From Bacilli bacterium (GTDB lineage: Bacteria > Bacillota_I > Bacilli_A > ML615J-28 > CAG-698), in contig CAKJYW010000017.1 of assembly GCA_918272565.1 (NCBI GenBank), positions 1-45,878 of the forward strand: DNA of 45,878 nucleotides, read 5' to 3'. Shown here one piece after another: positions 8,604-26,212 of this stretch. Numbering within the stretch: position 1 is the first letter of the stretch; every line of letters begins with the position of its first letter. Both the position numbers and the translations under genes were made by a program. The notes under the pieces were generated by a model. It was not told where the DNA came from. It saw only the letters and a list, made by a program, of their open reading frames with translations, and made no database searches.

Positions 8604-9014
8604 TCATTTTATATAATTAAAAACACAACTAATTCTATATATTGCTACATTTTCTTGTGCATTATATATATAGCCATTAGATGTGGCTTTTATTGATAAT
8701 GGAGTAATACCAGTTTTAGTAGGTAATTCACCTTTATCATTTTTTGTTTCTAACCATTCTCTAAAGTTTTCATAAAACTTACTATTATTTATATTGTTTA
8801 CAGCTTCATCATTCCAATAGAGTTTACTATCAAATGTAAATTGTAATTGGTATTCTTTTTCTCCTGTGATACTTTCACTTATTAAAGGTTCATATCCTGC
8901 ACCCTCATTTATTGAATATGCCTTTACTTTGTCAACTAAATAATCAACATTAAGTTCAGTGTATTCATCTAAATAAGGACAGGCTGATATAAAATCTCTT
9001 ATAGTTTCTATCAT
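8604..9014 (-). CDS. tail terminator-like minor capsid protein
   Basis: This 136-aa protein occupies the last connector slot before the tail tube gene. Its pattern, an initial helix (MIETIRDFISACPYLDEY) followed by VNVDYLVDKVKAYSINEG-type strands and a C-terminal GYIYNAQENVAIYRISCVFNY, resembles a family long mislabelled 'chloramphenicol resistance' in Firmicutes phages. It is more likely to be a tail terminator or minor capsid protein. It overlaps the upstream gene by four bases. Confidence 0.6.
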   Translation of the reverse strand: MIETIRDFISACPYLDEYTELNVDYLVDKVKAYSINEGAGYEPLISESITGEKEYQLQFTFDSKLYWNDEAVNNINNSKFYENFREWLETKNDKGELPTKTGITPLSIKATSNGYIYNAQENVAIYRISCVFNYIK

Positions 9015-9448
9015 TTCTTACCTCCTAAATATGGTGTTATATCTCTAATAATATCATCTGTATTTTCTACTATAGTTCTCTCTACAAAGTGTGCACCTCT
9101 ATTAGGCCCACTATGATATACAAGTGCTGTTGAACTAGGTACTTTTTTTATACCTGGTCTTGAAATAAAACCTGTTAAATTTCCACTCTTATCTTTTAAT
9201 GGAATAGCACCATAGCCATACTTTGGATCTACATACAAAATCCCCTCATTCATATAATGAGCATAAGGTGATTGTATTTGTATTGTTCCTGTGTTAATAT
9301 CTCTAACACTTGAAATAAGACTATAGCTTTGCATAGGCATTTTTTCTTTCATATAATGGATAAATTGTAAATCTACCAATTTATGAACAGCACCTTGATA
9401 TTCTAATCCCATATCTTTTATTGTAGGAAGGTCTATATCAAAATACAT
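9011..9448 (-). CDS. minor capsid / HK97 gp10-like connector
   Basis: This 145-aa protein has the gp10-like pattern: a helix ending in MPMQSYSLISSV, a beta strand (TIQIQSPYAHYMNEGILYVDP), and a C-terminal HSGPNRGAHFVERTIVENTDDIIRDI helix. The family joins head and tail, or lines the neck. It overlaps its neighbours by one base (9448) and four bases (9011-9014), showing tight coupling in the connector cluster. The equivalent in phage B is 40587-40946. Confidence 0.65.
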   Translation of the reverse strand: MYFDIDLPTIKDMGLEYQGAVHKLVDLQFIHYMKEKMPMQSYSLISSVRDINTGTIQIQSPYAHYMNEGILYVDPKYGYGAIPLKDKSGNLTGFISRPGIKKVPSSTALVYHSGPNRGAHFVERTIVENTDDIIRDITPYLGGKK

Positions 9449-14295: not shown

Positions 14296-15645
14296 TTATA
14301 CTTGTATTAGTATATCCATATATGGTTCAGTTGAATATTCCTGTGCATCTAGGCTGTCTATGTCTTGCTTTCCATCATCAAGTCTTACATCATTCTTATC
14401 TCTTTCCCATATAGCTGTTTTAAATGCCATTATCAAGTCTTCACAAGTTTCTAATATATAATATTTATTTGTGCTAAACATCTTGCAATAAAACCTAATT
14501 CTATTTAGTATCTTACCTTTAACAGCATTGTTTATTGGTATTCCTATATGATTTTCTCTTAATGCTCTTTCAAATCCTGCTATTAATGTTTGTTCAGCAC
14601 TATCACATCTTATATCAATTATATTAATTCCCTTGTACTCTTCTTGTAGTTCCTTTATAAAACTAATAAATTGCTCTATTAGTTCAGTATCATCAATTCT
14701 TTGTGCTATTCTCTTTTGCTTTATAGTTATTATATGTTTGAATTGATTAGTAAATGCTGTTGCATTAAAACTATGTGCAGATGTGCTACCTCCAAAGTCA
14801 ACACCTACTGTTATAAACTTTATTGTGTTTCTCATTGGATTAACATATCTACCATCATTGTCTATTCTTAACCAATCACTCATCTTTATAATGTGATGGT
14901 CTTTAAACTCTTGATATATTAAGCCTTCTGCTACTACTCTTTGCCCTAATATATCTCTTAAGTACCATATTGAGTTGACATCATACTGACTTACAATCTC
15001 TTGTTTTCTATCTTCACTTATACTTGCATTATCAAATATAGTAAAGTGTTCATAATTATATCCACCAAGTATTCCATCTCTTTGCCATTTATCTAGATAA
15101 TCAGTGTATATCTTGTCTAGTGGATTACTTGGGTTCATATCCCAAAATATTTTAGGATTATCACTTGCTAATTGCCTACCCATAGCTACCTTAATAAAGC
15201 TTTCCTTGCTTTCATCACTATCATAGTGTTCATTTATTTCAGTTGCTATCCATAAACCATAAGAGTTTCCTAGTATCTTCTTATAGCTATCGCTCTTACC
15301 ACCACCAGCAAATATTATTACTTTCTCATCATCACCAACTTTAACATTTAAGCATTCATTATCTAGGTATTTCCCCCATGTTGCTTTTATGTTATTCTTT
15401 GGATCATTTAATAAGTAATATAATCCTAATCCATTACACTCACCTATATTTAATTTAGCATTGGCTATTGTAGAACCACTAGCTAGATGTATCTTATCTT
15501 TTGTCTTAATTAACTGATAAGCAAATGCTATGCAATTATCTACTGTCTTACCAGCTCTAATACTACCTTCTGCAACATTAAACTTACAGCTTTGTGTCTT
15601 TGCTATGTATCTAGCATGTTTCTTTGTAAATTTCCAATCAATCAT
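14296..15645 (-). CDS. terL: terminase large subunit
   Basis: This 449-aa packaging motor contains Walker A AEGSIRAGKT (about residues 25-34) and a Walker B-like strand ending GLWIATEINEH (near 130-140). The C-terminal nuclease carries acidic clusters at VGVDFGGS, DIRCDSAEQ and DDGKQDIDSLDAQEY. This matches the PBSX/A118-type terminases. It overlaps the small subunit gene by eight bases. Both ATPase and nuclease residues appear intact, so the enzyme should be active. Confidence 0.93.
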   Translation of the reverse strand: MIDWKFTKKHARYIAKTQSCKFNVAEGSIRAGKTVDNCIAFAYQLIKTKDKIHLASGSTIANAKLNIGECNGLGLYYLLNDPKNNIKATWGKYLDNECLNVKVGDDEKVIIFAGGGKSDSYKKILGNSYGLWIATEINEHYDSDESKESFIKVAMGRQLASDNPKIFWDMNPSNPLDKIYTDYLDKWQRDGILGGYNYEHFTIFDNASISEDRKQEIVSQYDVNSIWYLRDILGQRVVAEGLIYQEFKDHHIIKMSDWLRIDNDGRYVNPMRNTIKFITVGVDFGGSTSAHSFNATAFTNQFKHIITIKQKRIAQRIDDTELIEQFISFIKELQEEYKGINIIDIRCDSAEQTLIAGFERALRENHIGIPINNAVKGKILNRIRFYCKMFSTNKYYILETCEDLIMAFKTAIWERDKNDVRLDDGKQDIDSLDAQEYSTEPYMDILIQV

Positions 15646-16051
15646 CTGTACTCTCTACTAACTTATTCATAGCACTCTCTAATGGACTTATATTTACTTC
15701 ATTTGTTGTTTTTATTTCTTGTTGGTCTTTCCAACCATAATTATTCTTTAAATTAAATATTTGCCCTAAACAATATTCTTTTTTATCAATTACTTTTTCC
15801 TCTAATTGTGTTTCTACAATTTGTTTAGCATTTTTTATTAGAGAGTAAAACAGTTCTTTTTTTTCATAATTCACTAATGTTTTTCTTGACATACCCAATG
15901 CTTGTGCCAAACCACTCATAGTGTAATTTCTTCCATCTACATCACATTGTTTAAAGTAATCTATGATTAATTGTTTTACTTTTGGTTCATCTTTTTCTGT
16001 ATATAGTTGAGCATTCTTATTGCCTAATAATGTTTCATAATCTCTAGCCAT
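15638..16051 (-). CDS. terS: terminase small subunit
   Basis: This 137-aa DNA-recognition subunit has an N-terminal helix-turn-helix region, YTMSGLAQALGMSRKTLVNYEKKELFYSLI (about residues 40-70). A following helical segment includes GQIFNLKNNYGWKDQQEIKTTNEV, characteristic of gp3-type terminase small subunits in Firmicutes phages. It lies upstream of and overlaps terL. Phage A is therefore fully equipped for packaging, and its cos/pac site may be near here, although none can be recognised by eye. Confidence 0.85.
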   Translation of the reverse strand: MARDYETLLGNKNAQLYTEKDEPKVKQLIIDYFKQCDVDGRNYTMSGLAQALGMSRKTLVNYEKKELFYSLIKNAKQIVETQLEEKVIDKKEYCLGQIFNLKNNYGWKDQQEIKTTNEVNISPLESAMNKLVESTDD

Positions 16052-16058
16052 ATACTAA

Positions 16059-16697
16059 TCACCTCAATTTATTATTTAATTCCTCTATTTGAAATGGTGC
16101 ATCTATATCTATTGTTTCATCATTAATAACTAGGTATGTATCATCTATTATGTACATCTTATTTATATCTAATCCATTAAGAACTCTATATAACTCCCAA
16201 CTAATAGCAAATCCCCTTTCACATCTTCCTATGTCTTGTAAGTATTTAGTTAGCTCTATCCCTTTTCTAAATACTTCAGGATTATTAACTATCCAACCAA
16301 ATGGCTCTCCCCAATTCTTGTGTTCAGGGTTCTTTGCTAATTCATTACCTATAAATATGTTTTTATCACTCTTAAGATTAATTATCTTCTTAATAGCATC
16401 TTCACTGTAATATACATCACCATGTAAATATACACATGGTTCATTCATAGGATAATATGCATCTACCCAATAACCATGTATTTTTTTGCCTTTGTATGCA
16501 TATGTATTAGTATGTTCTAATCTTGGTGCATACTCATCAAATCTTGGATCATTACTTGATATGTATATATCTTCAATGCCATTTTCTTTTAATAATCTTA
16601 TAGTCCTAGCTACTAATGTTTCACCATTGATAACACTTAATTGTTTAGGTGTTTCAAAGTGCTCATAGAAGCCACCACACATTATTATATATTTCAT
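16059..16697 (-). CDS. sugar nucleotidyltransferase-like protein (NTP_transferase/MobA-type fold)
   Basis: This 212-aa protein starts MKYIIMCGGFYEHFETPKQLSVINGETLVARTIRLLKENGIEDIYI, a degenerate version of the GGxGxR...PK signature of nucleotidyltransferases, with the usual P-K-L segment kept. YLHGDVYY supplies the LxGD metal-binding motif near residue 93. Enzymes of this fold activate sugars or alditol phosphates as NDP/CDP compounds. It overlaps the preceding gene by four bases and sits just upstream of terS. Together with the glycosyltransferase it suggests a phage-encoded sugar modification of DNA, virion or cell surface. The substrate is unknown. Confidence 0.65.
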   Translation of the reverse strand: MKYIIMCGGFYEHFETPKQLSVINGETLVARTIRLLKENGIEDIYISSNDPRFDEYAPRLEHTNTYAYKGKKIHGYWVDAYYPMNEPCVYLHGDVYYSEDAIKKIINLKSDKNIFIGNELAKNPEHKNWGEPFGWIVNNPEVFRKGIELTKYLQDIGRCERGFAISWELYRVLNGLDINKMYIIDDTYLVINDETIDIDAPFQIEELNNKLR

Positions 16698-16903
16698 TTT
16701 CTTTTAGCTTTCTTTTCTACAGTTTTCTTTACTGGTGTTTCTTTAACTTCTTCTTTTACTTCACCAATAAATTCAACTAATTCATCAACTTCTAGTATTT
16801 CTTCCATTCTTTCTTTAGTTATTGTAATTTCTTCACCCTCTTCATACATCTTTCCTGTGTATTTGTCTGCAAATGGAACTAATACTTTAACTTTTACTTT
16901 CAT
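16694..16903 (-). CDS. internal in-frame small protein encoded by the 3' end of the glycosyltransferase ORF
   Basis: A perfect AAGGAGGA (16911-16918) lies eight bases before ATG 16903, and two bases before another ATG at 16909. It opens a 69-aa protein starting MKVKVKVLVPFADKYTGKMY with a Lys/Glu-rich tail ending KKAKRK. In many phages a free-standing small gene has this MKVKVL.PF.DK.TGE.Y pattern (recalled, not searched). Here no stop codon separates it from the upstream glycosyltransferase, so it may be made alone, as a fusion, or both. Confidence 0.6.
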   Translation of the reverse strand: MKVKVKVLVPFADKYTGKMYEEGEEITITKERMEEILEVDELVEFIGEVKEEVKETPVKKTVEKKAKRK

Positions 16904-17812
16904 ATTCATTTCCTCCTTATATGTACTTGGCTCATCTATTAGCCATTCATTCCATGTATCTTCACCTACATATCCTTTATAAGTAGGTATCTTTAAAAAT
17001 CTTTTAACATCTATATTATCCATATCAAATGGAACATAATAGCAATTCTTACCATCTACAAGTCCTTGTTCATAAAAACTAGGTATTGGTGTACAGATCA
17101 ATGGCACTCCAAATGCCTCACATTCTCTTGTAAAATAACAATCTCCTTCACAATCACTCAACTGTATTCCATAACCTTTTCCTTGTATTAATTTTATGTA
17201 TGGTCTTATATTTAATGTTGGTTTTAAATATACTATGTTAGGTGAATGTATTTTATTTGGGCTATCTGTAAATATTAACCACAAATAATTAATTTCTTCT
17301 TGATCCATTAAATTACAGATTTTTTGCATTCTCCATGTGCCTTTCTCATTTGTTAATCTTGTAGCACTAATTAATAACAATGGTTCTTTCTTTTCTTCTT
17401 CTGTTATTTGTAATACATTTCTACATATCTCAGGCTTAATCCCTGTTAATTCTTCCCATTCTTTACCAGCACCCTTACTTACTGCTAAATATTTTGTTAT
17501 TTTTGGGTGGGTATGTGGTTCTAATTTGTTTGATATATACATAGCATGTATAACTTGTATATATTCTTCTGCTTCTATTTCTTCTATTATGTCAATAGAA
17601 TAATTAAAAAAAGCCTTTTTACATTTTATAGGCTGTCCTGTATATTTAACTAATCTTACATACTTTCTTAATCTATTAAGTTGTTCTTTATCACCCTGCC
17701 TATATAATACAGTAATATCTTTATCATTGTATTTTTTAGCTATTTCATATATGTATGTTTCTACACCACCAATAACATTAAAATAAGGTATATAAAATAA
17801 ATTACTATACAT
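16694..17812 (-). CDS. GT4-type glycosyltransferase, C-terminally fused to a small phage protein
   Basis: The start at ATG 17812 (MYSNLFYIPYFNVIGGVE) has an AAAGGAATT site. The longer frame upstream would run through a terminator and is rejected. The 372-aa product shows a GT-B plan: an N-terminal acceptor domain with the GGVETYIYEIA loop, and a donor domain beginning LLLISATRLTNEKG with SDCEGDCYFTRECEAFGVPLICT, the E-x7-E-like region. Residues from about 302 onward correspond to the separate small protein at 16694-16903. Its partner downstream is a nucleotidyltransferase-like protein. A role in decorating virion, host surface or DNA is inferred only. Confidence 0.75.
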   Translation of the reverse strand: MYSNLFYIPYFNVIGGVETYIYEIAKKYNDKDITVLYRQGDKEQLNRLRKYVRLVKYTGQPIKCKKAFFNYSIDIIEEIEAEEYIQVIHAMYISNKLEPHTHPKITKYLAVSKGAGKEWEELTGIKPEICRNVLQITEEEKKEPLLLISATRLTNEKGTWRMQKICNLMDQEEINYLWLIFTDSPNKIHSPNIVYLKPTLNIRPYIKLIQGKGYGIQLSDCEGDCYFTRECEAFGVPLICTPIPSFYEQGLVDGKNCYYVPFDMDNIDVKRFLKIPTYKGYVGEDTWNEWLIDEPSTYKEEMNMKVKVKVLVPFADKYTGKMYEEGEEITITKERMEEILEVDELVEFIGEVKEEVKETPVKKTVEKKAKRK

Positions 17813-17830: not shown

Positions 17831-17855
17831 AAAAAAAGAACATATTTCTATGTTC
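17831..17855 (-). terminator. intrinsic terminator of the noncoding transcript
   Basis: GAACAT (17838-17843) pairs with ATGTTC (17850-17855). On the minus strand the stem is followed directly by seven Ts (17831-17837). It stands between the 18.2-kb promoter and the glycosyltransferase start, so it should end the leader RNA unless it is antiterminated or leaky. Confidence 0.85.
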
Positions 17856-18195
17856 CTCAACTGCTATTAATTAGCAGTACAGAATAGATATAAAGGTTTA
17901 TCATGTATGCCTACATAACTTTGTAATGCATCAAGAGAATGCCCAAATCATCCATTACTGATTATTGGATTACTACCTTTGTCCCCTAACTTTTTATATA
18001 TCTACTCTGCACTACCAATTAAAAATTGATAATGCATAAATTGGATTGAGTATCAATAGTAGATACTGCATTAATGATATAAGGCACAGAAAGGACATTT
18101 AAAGGCATCATATCATTAATGCACTACCTACTAAAGATAGTGCCTGATAATATTTAGAAATTTATAATAATTACCTCACCTGGAATATTTCCATT
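17838..18195 (-). ncRNA. candidate structured noncoding RNA / late leader, about 360 nt
   Basis: This stretch has no ORF of note. It is bounded by an extended -10 promoter (18202-18210) and an intrinsic terminator (17831-17855). It contains several strong inverted repeats. One is a perfect 14-bp pair, 18067-18080 with 18110-18123. Another is a 13-bp stem with two G-U pairs and a UUU loop, 18008-18020 with 18024-18036. Further pairs are AGTATC/GATACT (18049-18054/18062-18067), GCACTA/TAGTGC (18121-18126/18138-18143) and ACTGCTA/TAGCAGT (17860-17866/17872-17878). I do not recognise a known riboswitch, group I/II intron core or named large phage RNA. It may be a stand-alone RNA or an antitermination leader of the late operon. 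Confidence 0.6.
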
Positions 18196-18201
18196 GTACA
18201 C

Positions 18202-18235
18202 ATTATACCATATAAAATGTGCAATAATGTGCAAT
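18202..18235 (-). promoter_or_regulatory. late promoter with tandem activator-like repeats
   Basis: On the minus strand TGGTATAAT (18202-18210) is an extended -10 element. No good -35 is present. In its place are two perfect 10-bp tandem copies of ATTGCACATT (plus strand AATGTGCAAT, 18216-18225 and 18226-18235). Repeats one helical turn apart at -30 to -45 fit an activator site, plausibly for the ArpU/RinA-like protein encoded directly upstream. The promoter should drive the noncoding RNA and the late operon. Confidence 0.7.
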
Positions 18236-18238
18236 CTT

Positions 18239-18640
18239 TCATTTTTTGTATAAATAATGGCATTGTCTTAATGAATAATTAGTTAATCTACTTATTTTAT
18301 TCCAACTAAACCTTTCTACATCTCTATAATATTTTATTAAGTAATGCCCCCCTGCTTTATTAATTCTTTCCATTTCATTTATAATATATTTCTCATAAGA
18401 ATTAATACTTTTTTGTAATGCAAATATTTTATCATCATATTCTTCATCTTTTATTAAATAATGAGTGTATTTATCTGTTATTTTAAAACTATCACTTTTG
18501 CCCTCTATTACATCTCTCATAATAGGACTTTTAGGCTGTGTTTTAATAAAATTAACTTCCTTTTGCTCTAAATAAAGGTCTAGTTCATTAACTAACTTTT
18601 CTCTTTCTATTTTTGCTTGATTTATTGTTAAATGATCCAT
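18239..18640 (-). CDS. ArpU/RinA-like late transcription regulator
   Basis: This 133-aa protein has a helical N-terminal half with a Lys/Glu-rich coil, and a sigma-70 region 4-like C-terminal helix-turn-helix: HYLIKYYRDVERFSWNKISRLTNYSLRQCHYLYKK. This is the plan of ArpU/RinA/DUF1492 regulators, the last early genes that switch on packaging and structural operons. Its stop codon is four bases from a promoter region with tandem repeats, which supports that role. Start 18640 has a GGTATGG context behind the upstream small ORF. Confidence 0.7.
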   Translation of the reverse strand: MDHLTINQAKIEREKLVNELDLYLEQKEVNFIKTQPKSPIMRDVIEGKSDSFKITDKYTHYLIKDEEYDDKIFALQKSINSYEKYIINEMERINKAGGHYLIKYYRDVERFSWNKISRLTNYSLRQCHYLYKK

Positions 18641-25752: not shown

Positions 25753-25781
25753 GTCTTCTACTACCTCCTAACTATACTTCA

Positions 25782-25810
25782 ATTATAATTTAACTGTGAG
25801 TGAAAGTCAA
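25782..25810 (-). promoter_or_regulatory. early leftward promoter
   Basis: On the minus strand, TTGACT (25805-25810) and TATAAT (25782-25787) are exactly 17 bases apart, close to sigma-A consensus. It drives the Cro-like gene and the early operon. Confidence 0.85.
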
Positions 25811-25841
25811 CACTTTTTTTAAACTTTTAATGAAAAAAGTG
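25811..25841. promoter_or_regulatory. candidate operator dyad in the lysogeny switch
   Basis: CACTTTTTT (25811-25819) and AAAAAAGTG (25833-25841) form a perfect 9-bp inverted repeat between the two divergent promoters, touching the leftward -35. This is the expected place for repressor/Cro binding. The AT-rich arms make chance similarity possible. Confidence 0.5.
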
Positions 25842-25860
25842 TAAATTATTTTAAATTTTA

Positions 25861-25869
25861 TGTTATAAT
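25861..25869 (+). promoter_or_regulatory. rightward promoter for repressor-integrase
   Basis: TGTTATAAT is an extended -10 element. No clear -35 is visible, which fits a weak, regulated maintenance promoter. Transcription would begin near 25876. Confidence 0.6.
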
Positions 25870-25906
25870 GTTATTGTGATTGGATATGGATGAAGGTATT
25901 TATTTA

Positions 25907-26203
25907 ATGTCTAACTTAAAATATTTAAGAAAGACACATAAAAAAACTTTGCAAGATATAGCTAAAGCTATGGGTAAGTCTTGTGCAACAATACATTATT
26001 GGGAAACAGGCCAAAGAGAAATGTATGCTATTGATTTGTGGAATATGGCAAAGTTTTATAATGTAAATGTAAATGATCTAGTGTTTACTGATTTAAGTAA
26101 AAATGAAGTTAATTCACTAGATATTATAATAGATTATAAGATTAGCTCTTTAAATGATGAGCAGAAGAAAAAAGTAATTGATATGATAGATATTATTAAG
26201 TAG
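25907..26203 (+). CDS. phage repressor (XRE-family HTH)
   Basis: The start is ATG 25907 (MSNLKYLRKTHKKTLQDIAKAMG), because GAAGG lies ten bases upstream and an earlier ATG would leave almost no leader after the promoter. The 98-aa product has an HTH (LQDIAKAMGKSCATIHYWETGQREMYAIDLWNMAKFY) and a short C-terminal dimerisation part ending QKKKVIDMIDIIK. No peptidase or LexA-like cleavage domain is present, so induction must use another route. It is in an operon with the integrase nine bases downstream. Confidence 0.82.
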   Translation: MSNLKYLRKTHKKTLQDIAKAMGKSCATIHYWETGQREMYAIDLWNMAKFYNVNVNDLVFTDLSKNEVNSLDIIIDYKISSLNDEQKKKVIDMIDIIK

Positions 26204-26212
26204 GGGGATGCC

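Follow-up and report, generated by a model that had tools for sequence, protein, structure and literature searches.

The phi29 pRNA carries two hairpins at a junction, whose loops are mutually complementary, and ROOL RNA forms a homo-octameric nanocage. ROOL is a rumen-derived noncoding RNA of phages and prophages that is found near tRNAs and combines conserved kissing loops with a variable linker, while GOLLD is a large phage RNA that makes loop-loop contacts and sometimes harbours tRNAs in its linker (PMC12286853). A much smaller phage RNA, HK022 put, comprises about 70 nt folded into two stem-loops (PMC9378689) and acts on early operons. Finally, Ltr promoters are known to drive packaging and structural genes together (PMC13123087).

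The window analysed here, a stretch of 45,878 nucleotides, spans all of contig C17 in a genome assembly of 1.69 Mb and was identified as phage DNA by its terminase, portal, tape measure and serine recombinase. The minus strand carries nearly all genes, and on this strand an RNA stretch separates the early genes from the glycosyltransferase (GT) and terminase genes. The original prediction had placed a new structured noncoding RNA of about 360 nt, with its own promoter and terminator, at this early/late boundary; the placement was confirmed and can be refined to a putative Ltr-type late promoter. The span is indeed free of genes, as no ORF of at least 50 aa lies between the GT start at 17812 and position 18239, and an alternative TTG start could lengthen GT to 17860. 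The original prediction took it for the largest gene-free stretch in the window, but the gene-free length at 25753-26212 (~460 nt) may be comparable. The features surrounding the RNA are the following:

18239..18640, minus strand: candidate Ltr-like late transcriptional regulator gene, the 3' end of which adjoins the promoter repeats
18216..18235, minus strand: perfect tandem direct repeat, ATTGCACATT twice with a period of 10, upstream of the -10
18202..18210, minus strand: extended -10 TGGTATAAT, called from the sequence and from equal spacing in relatives
17831..17857, minus strand: intrinsic terminator with a 9-10-bp stem, GAAA loop and U7, called from sequence, fold and a dedicated terminator scan
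16694..17812, minus strand: GT-like gene, first gene of the late operon past the RNA (Glyco_transf_4, 23.2 bits, below the Pfam cut-off)
15638-16051, minus strand: terminase small subunit (phrog_606 / GP3_package), a packaging gene downstream of the RNA
14296-15645, minus strand: terminase large subunit (phrog_2), a packaging gene downstream of the RNA

Between 18195 and 17831 the minus strand holds two tandem RNA modules and the terminator, preceded by the extended -10, and transcription would be expected to start near 18195. The extended -10 and the hairpin with seven Ts that had been noted at the outset were both recovered, the latter ending ~19 nt before the GT start codon. In a consensus scan of the stretch the terminator was not among the calls and promoter-like sites were no more frequent than expected, and promoter and terminator therefore rest on conserved placement in relatives; terminators nearly identical to that of the window close the arrays in loci L120 and L171. 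The minus strand folds at -115.6 kcal/mol, compared with -78.6 +/- 5.3 for shuffled sequences (z -7.0, 0/100), and a search for inverted repeats returned one of 35 nt (83%) and one of 26 nt (85%).

The tandem repeat upstream of the -10 is a candidate activator binding site, and none of 300 shuffles yielded an equally good one. Perfect tandem repeats of 9-10 nt, located ~28 nt upstream of the -10 and one helical turn apart, occur in the window and in five relatives, and the repeated word differs from phage to phage (window, L034, L021, L030, L024 and L031). These loci thus represent ready regulator/operator pairs for studies of specificity. Protein searches gave no family match for the window's own regulator candidate; its syntenic homologues match the PHROG family phrog_36, “transcriptional regulator” (L033, 3e-11; L021, 2e-5; L031, 2e-5). 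Size and position of the candidate agree with Ltr proteins as described in PMC13123087. Together with its relatives, the window thus appears to place the RNA behind an Ltr-like late promoter. Across the family, a -10-like box lies within 200 nt upstream of 36 of 69 arrays, where about a third would be expected by chance; since this enrichment is mild, an own promoter cannot be claimed for every array.

Relatives were retrieved with the terminase and a 133-aa neighbour gene, and related phages bear noncoding stretches with the same motifs in the equivalent position. Relatives recovered with GT as the search anchor were without the RNA. A scan of 2.9 million viral contigs used a pair of degenerate DNA patterns that describe the two sides of the unit, and both matched at the expected spacing in many contigs. 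The covariance model R1 was built from 28 modules, its E-values being rough by design, and yielded 95 non-overlapping modules, 88 of which remain at less than 90% identity. The family amounts to ~90 non-redundant modules on ~65 phage or prophage contigs, arranged in arrays of 1 to 4 and spread over dozens of gut and rumen phages. Whole-contig searches of 20 phage records found one to a few sense-strand modules in each, in a list that also includes antisense matches. In GTDB genomes six loci proved real (labelled Bacillales, Bacilli, Clostridia or Firmicutes), the remaining pattern matches being mostly due to chance. Among 296 genomes of the window's class R1 matched seven, namely the genome of the window and six from one other family.

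A BLAST search of the region against a cultured-phage collection returned chance matches only, and module queries against cultured phages gave nothing convincing. The covariance search that the original prediction had proposed as a check found none of the 4227 families of Rfam 15 in the window at gathering score, ROOL (RF03087; 574-position model, threshold 99.1 bits) and phi29 pRNA included; weak matches (miRNA-like, rli34, STnc550, RAGATH-6) lie far under their gathering scores and were set aside as chance. We found no earlier description in the main texts of the open-access papers searched.

Each module consists of three helices over roughly 100-200 nt. Helix H1 (7 bp, CACTNNN/NNNAGTG) is followed directly by P2 (13 bp, TACTGATGATATA/TATATCATTAGTA), which is closed by a hypervariable insert of 7-174 nt; a two-base linker, usually CA, leads to H3 (5 bp, GTNNN/NNNAC). 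In the window the two modules are laid out as follows:

18040..18153, minus strand: RNA module 1 (R1 83.7 bits; member of the training set)
18142-18136/18128-18122, minus strand: H1 of module 1
18121-18109/18081-18069, minus strand: P2 of module 1, with insert 18108-18082
18068-18067 and 18066-18062/18054-18050, minus strand: CA linker and H3 of module 1
17851..18041, minus strand: RNA module 2 (outside the training set; R1 50 bits, E 1.9e-7 for the 1.69-Mb genome)
~18034-18028/18016-18010, minus strand: H1 of module 2, extendable to 13 bp
18009-17997/17892-17880, minus strand: P2 of module 2, with the 104-nt insert 17996-17893
17877-17873/17865-17861, minus strand: H3 of module 2

Both repeats that had drawn attention to the stretch are real parts of this architecture: the “perfect 14-bp” repeat pair TGCATTAATGATAT/ATATCATTAATGCA is P2 of module 1, and the 13-bp hairpin with a UUU loop, TGCATTATCAATT-TTT-AATTGGTAGTGCA, is H1 of module 2. 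The original prediction of a structured noncoding RNA is supported; what it missed is that a single module, shared by many phages, occurs twice in the stretch.

Similar-length modules were aligned in two sets with MAFFT (A2, A3), and the model-fitted alignment A4 includes some antisense rows and, like fitted alignments in general, leans to its own structure. Covariation was found for 7 of 7 pairs in H1, 11 of 13 in P2 and all five in H3. A4 contains 316 cells with both sides changed, compared with 99.9 +/- 9 after shuffling (0/500), and the signal is lost when the partner is shifted by as little as one and up to three columns; the 88 filtered modules agree with this result. Counts for H1, H3 and the loops stem from a fixed-register test, which does not depend on where the model places the loops. 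In this test 66 of 88 modules have a perfect H3, compared with 9.6 +/- 2.6 when the downstream sequence is shuffled, and H1 forms at least six of its seven pairs in 82 of 88 versus 44 in the control. G-U pairs (293) vastly outnumber A-C mismatches (7) in the module helices, which indicates that selection acts on the structure as RNA of the module-bearing strand. The modules almost certainly constitute a genuine conserved structured RNA family.

Loop complementarity links the five bases that precede the H1 3' arm with the five that follow the H3 5' arm. All five pairs are possible in 80 of 88 modules versus 36 +/- 3 with permuted partners (maximum 47 in 2000), a count inflated by the relatedness of the sequences, yet one to which many variants contribute (TATA, AGTA, AATA and TAATT types). 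The window itself contains TAGTA/TACTA in module 1 and TAATT/AATTA in module 2. Between different modules of one array the loops can cross-pair in 19 of 38 cases, near the background of 0.41, and hence loop pairing in cis and in trans is not separated by these counts. Individual modules carry further structure: the insert at L058:2907-3092 (minus strand) holds a perfect tRNA T-arm-like hairpin, GATGGTTCGAATCCATC. Past their modules, L024 (~2600-2830) and L030 (~9010-9180) have an additional 3' domain in common, and both have terminator hairpins with a GCTAGTACAG/GCTAGTGCAG loop.

The H1 3' arm has two possible partners, either the H1 5' arm or CA plus the H3 5' arm. The latter pairing creates a single extended hairpin of ~25 bp that contains a G-G mismatch in nearly all modules (83/88). 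It is favoured by ~7 kcal/mol on average, according to nearest-neighbour energies that omit loop pairing, and is also selected by RNAalifold; kissing of the loops is therefore putative. Where the H1 3' arm is changed to CTAGTG, however, the 5' arm changes to match, and since such modules keep H1 while breaking the extended helix, H1 is selected in its own right. Covariation is compatible with two readings: H1, H3 and the kissing loops form jointly, be it inside one module or across copies, or the RNA alternates between the two folds.

The arrays are nearly always co-oriented with the flanking genes and occupy two preferred sites. One lies upstream of terminase genes, the large-terminase PHROGs being varied (2, 979, 3717, 38/30251, 9); the other is the gap between a minor head gene (phrog_581) and the head gene that follows it, which in L027 codes for a scaffolding protein. 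L021 and L027 have modules at both sites. Within 250 nt a terminator is found downstream of 39 of 68 arrays and upstream of 7 of 68, at a background of 0.11 per 250 nt. Same-strand tRNAs lie within 250 nt of a module in 17 of 22 tRNA-bearing loci, some at gaps of 0-10 nt. In L104 a ROOL RNA (1356-1954, 149 bits) begins where one module ends, with two further modules and a terminator behind it; the ROOL RNA and modules at L104:1187-2420 apparently form one transcript that would end at the terminator near 2500. Apart from tRNAs, this is the only Rfam match among the scanned loci, GOLLD being absent; among 13 module-bearing phage records tested for ROOL, one gave a match. No ROOL was matched in G000 and six other module-bearing genomes, and no module was found at the ROOL-like region of a Staphylococcus phage. 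At L048:8930-10294 the gene of a DUF2828/DUF7788 protein, annotated in PHROG as “RNA-binding protein”, stops 61 nt short of a module located downstream, and its product is possibly an RNA-binding partner.

The two mechanisms named at the outset, a stand-alone RNA and an antitermination leader, are still the leading ones. We regard it as about an even bet that the stretch encodes a ~365-nt late phage noncoding RNA, made up of two tandem modules of the new type, that serves as a trans-acting structural RNA. Transcription would begin at an Ltr-activated late promoter; the H1 and H3 loops would either kiss, inside one module or from one RNA copy to another, or take turns with the 25-bp extended hairpin, the inserts would display variable domains, and tRNAs or a ROOL RNA could share the transcript. 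A trans-acting structural RNA fits the tRNA/ROOL habitat, the loop complementarity and the signals of L056, L171 and L120, where, as read by eye, a -10-like box of its own precedes the array and another promoter-like sequence comes after the array terminator and ahead of the following gene, the pattern that an independent RNA unit would show. A more specific version, in which the modules are assembly units whose H1 loops pair with H3 loops of other copies to build rings or cages, seems rather unlikely; such structures would arise while heads are assembled and DNA is packaged, and tRNAs or ROOL would be carried along as cargo domains. The same further promoter-like sequences past the array terminator speak against a cis-acting late leader, the main rival, to which we give a minor share of our confidence. 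Here, the first-transcribed modules would modify RNA polymerase or refold, such that the terminator is passed into the packaging operon by a logic like that of lambda 6S/Q or HK022 put. With only ~19 nt between terminator and GT the late operon must read through the terminator, which suits a role in cis, as do the order of elements shared by the window and its relatives (regulator, repeats, promoter, modules, terminator, late genes), the joint control of packaging and structural genes by Ltr promoters (PMC13123087), the co-orientation of arrays followed by terminators, and two mutually exclusive folds that both appear conserved. Yet neither fold overlaps the terminator hairpin, one to four copies with hypervariable inserts are unlike put, and the arrays of L027, L090 and L076 in the minor head/scaffold region come after, not before, a terminator-like hairpin. 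In these three loci of the head gene cluster (L027:14545-14649, L090:121-292, L076:3750-3903) a single module is flanked by two such hairpins.

The tRNAs that abut modules, the modules flanking ROOL and the location between terminator-like hairpins and genes would also suit an element that processes or insulates long late transcripts, marking cleavage or protecting ends to free tRNAs, ROOL or mRNA pieces. We consider this doubtful, because it leaves loop complementarity and variable inserts unexplained, many arrays have no tRNA nearby, and tRNA processing normally does without such an element. A long imperfect inverted repeat with variable apex, in tandem copies that may enclose ROOL or tRNAs, also recalls a folded DNA site (attC-like, MITE, REP or origin); however, the G-U excess on a single strand, the near-constant co-orientation with genes, the terminators that follow and the conserved gene position make this very improbable. 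An ordinary spacer with chance hairpins is hardly credible: AT-rich intergenic DNA often folds, and the plus strand too gives z -4.9, but the excess of folding and homologues with many compensatory changes stand against it. Such homologues already refute the spacer, which the original prediction had tied to a lack of covariation.

An RNA class that is absent from Rfam 15 yet backed by dense covariation occurs in many uncultured gut and rumen phages, and BLAST did not detect it in the cultured-phage collection. Its place is the section of the late operon devoted to packaging and head assembly, where tRNAs and ROOL are among its neighbours. Based on these searches, we file it as a new class that would belong to neither ROOL, GOLLD nor pRNA, although it may work like these self-associating phage RNAs. 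The passages of PMC13123087 consulted on the Ltr/RinA late promoters of Gram-positive phages do not mention a structured RNA between promoter and terminase. Like HK022 put and the lambda late leader, the module RNA is a structured RNA that opens a phage operon ahead of a terminator; it differs from put in its location in the late region, its length, its three helices and its arrays. Similar to phi29 pRNA, it has two hairpin loops that are mutually complementary and covary, and it is encoded here beside packaging genes; it differs in that the module phages possess small and large terminase subunits and that the modules come in tandem with variable inserts. GOLLD differs in size and architecture. 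ROOL is likewise a phage noncoding RNA with tRNA neighbours, complementary loops and a variable part, and is co-located with modules in L104, yet it is one fold of ~574 nt in contrast to the short repeated module. Such a small repeated unit lends itself to testing far better than ROOL or GOLLD do and could thereby open the role of large phage RNAs to experiment.
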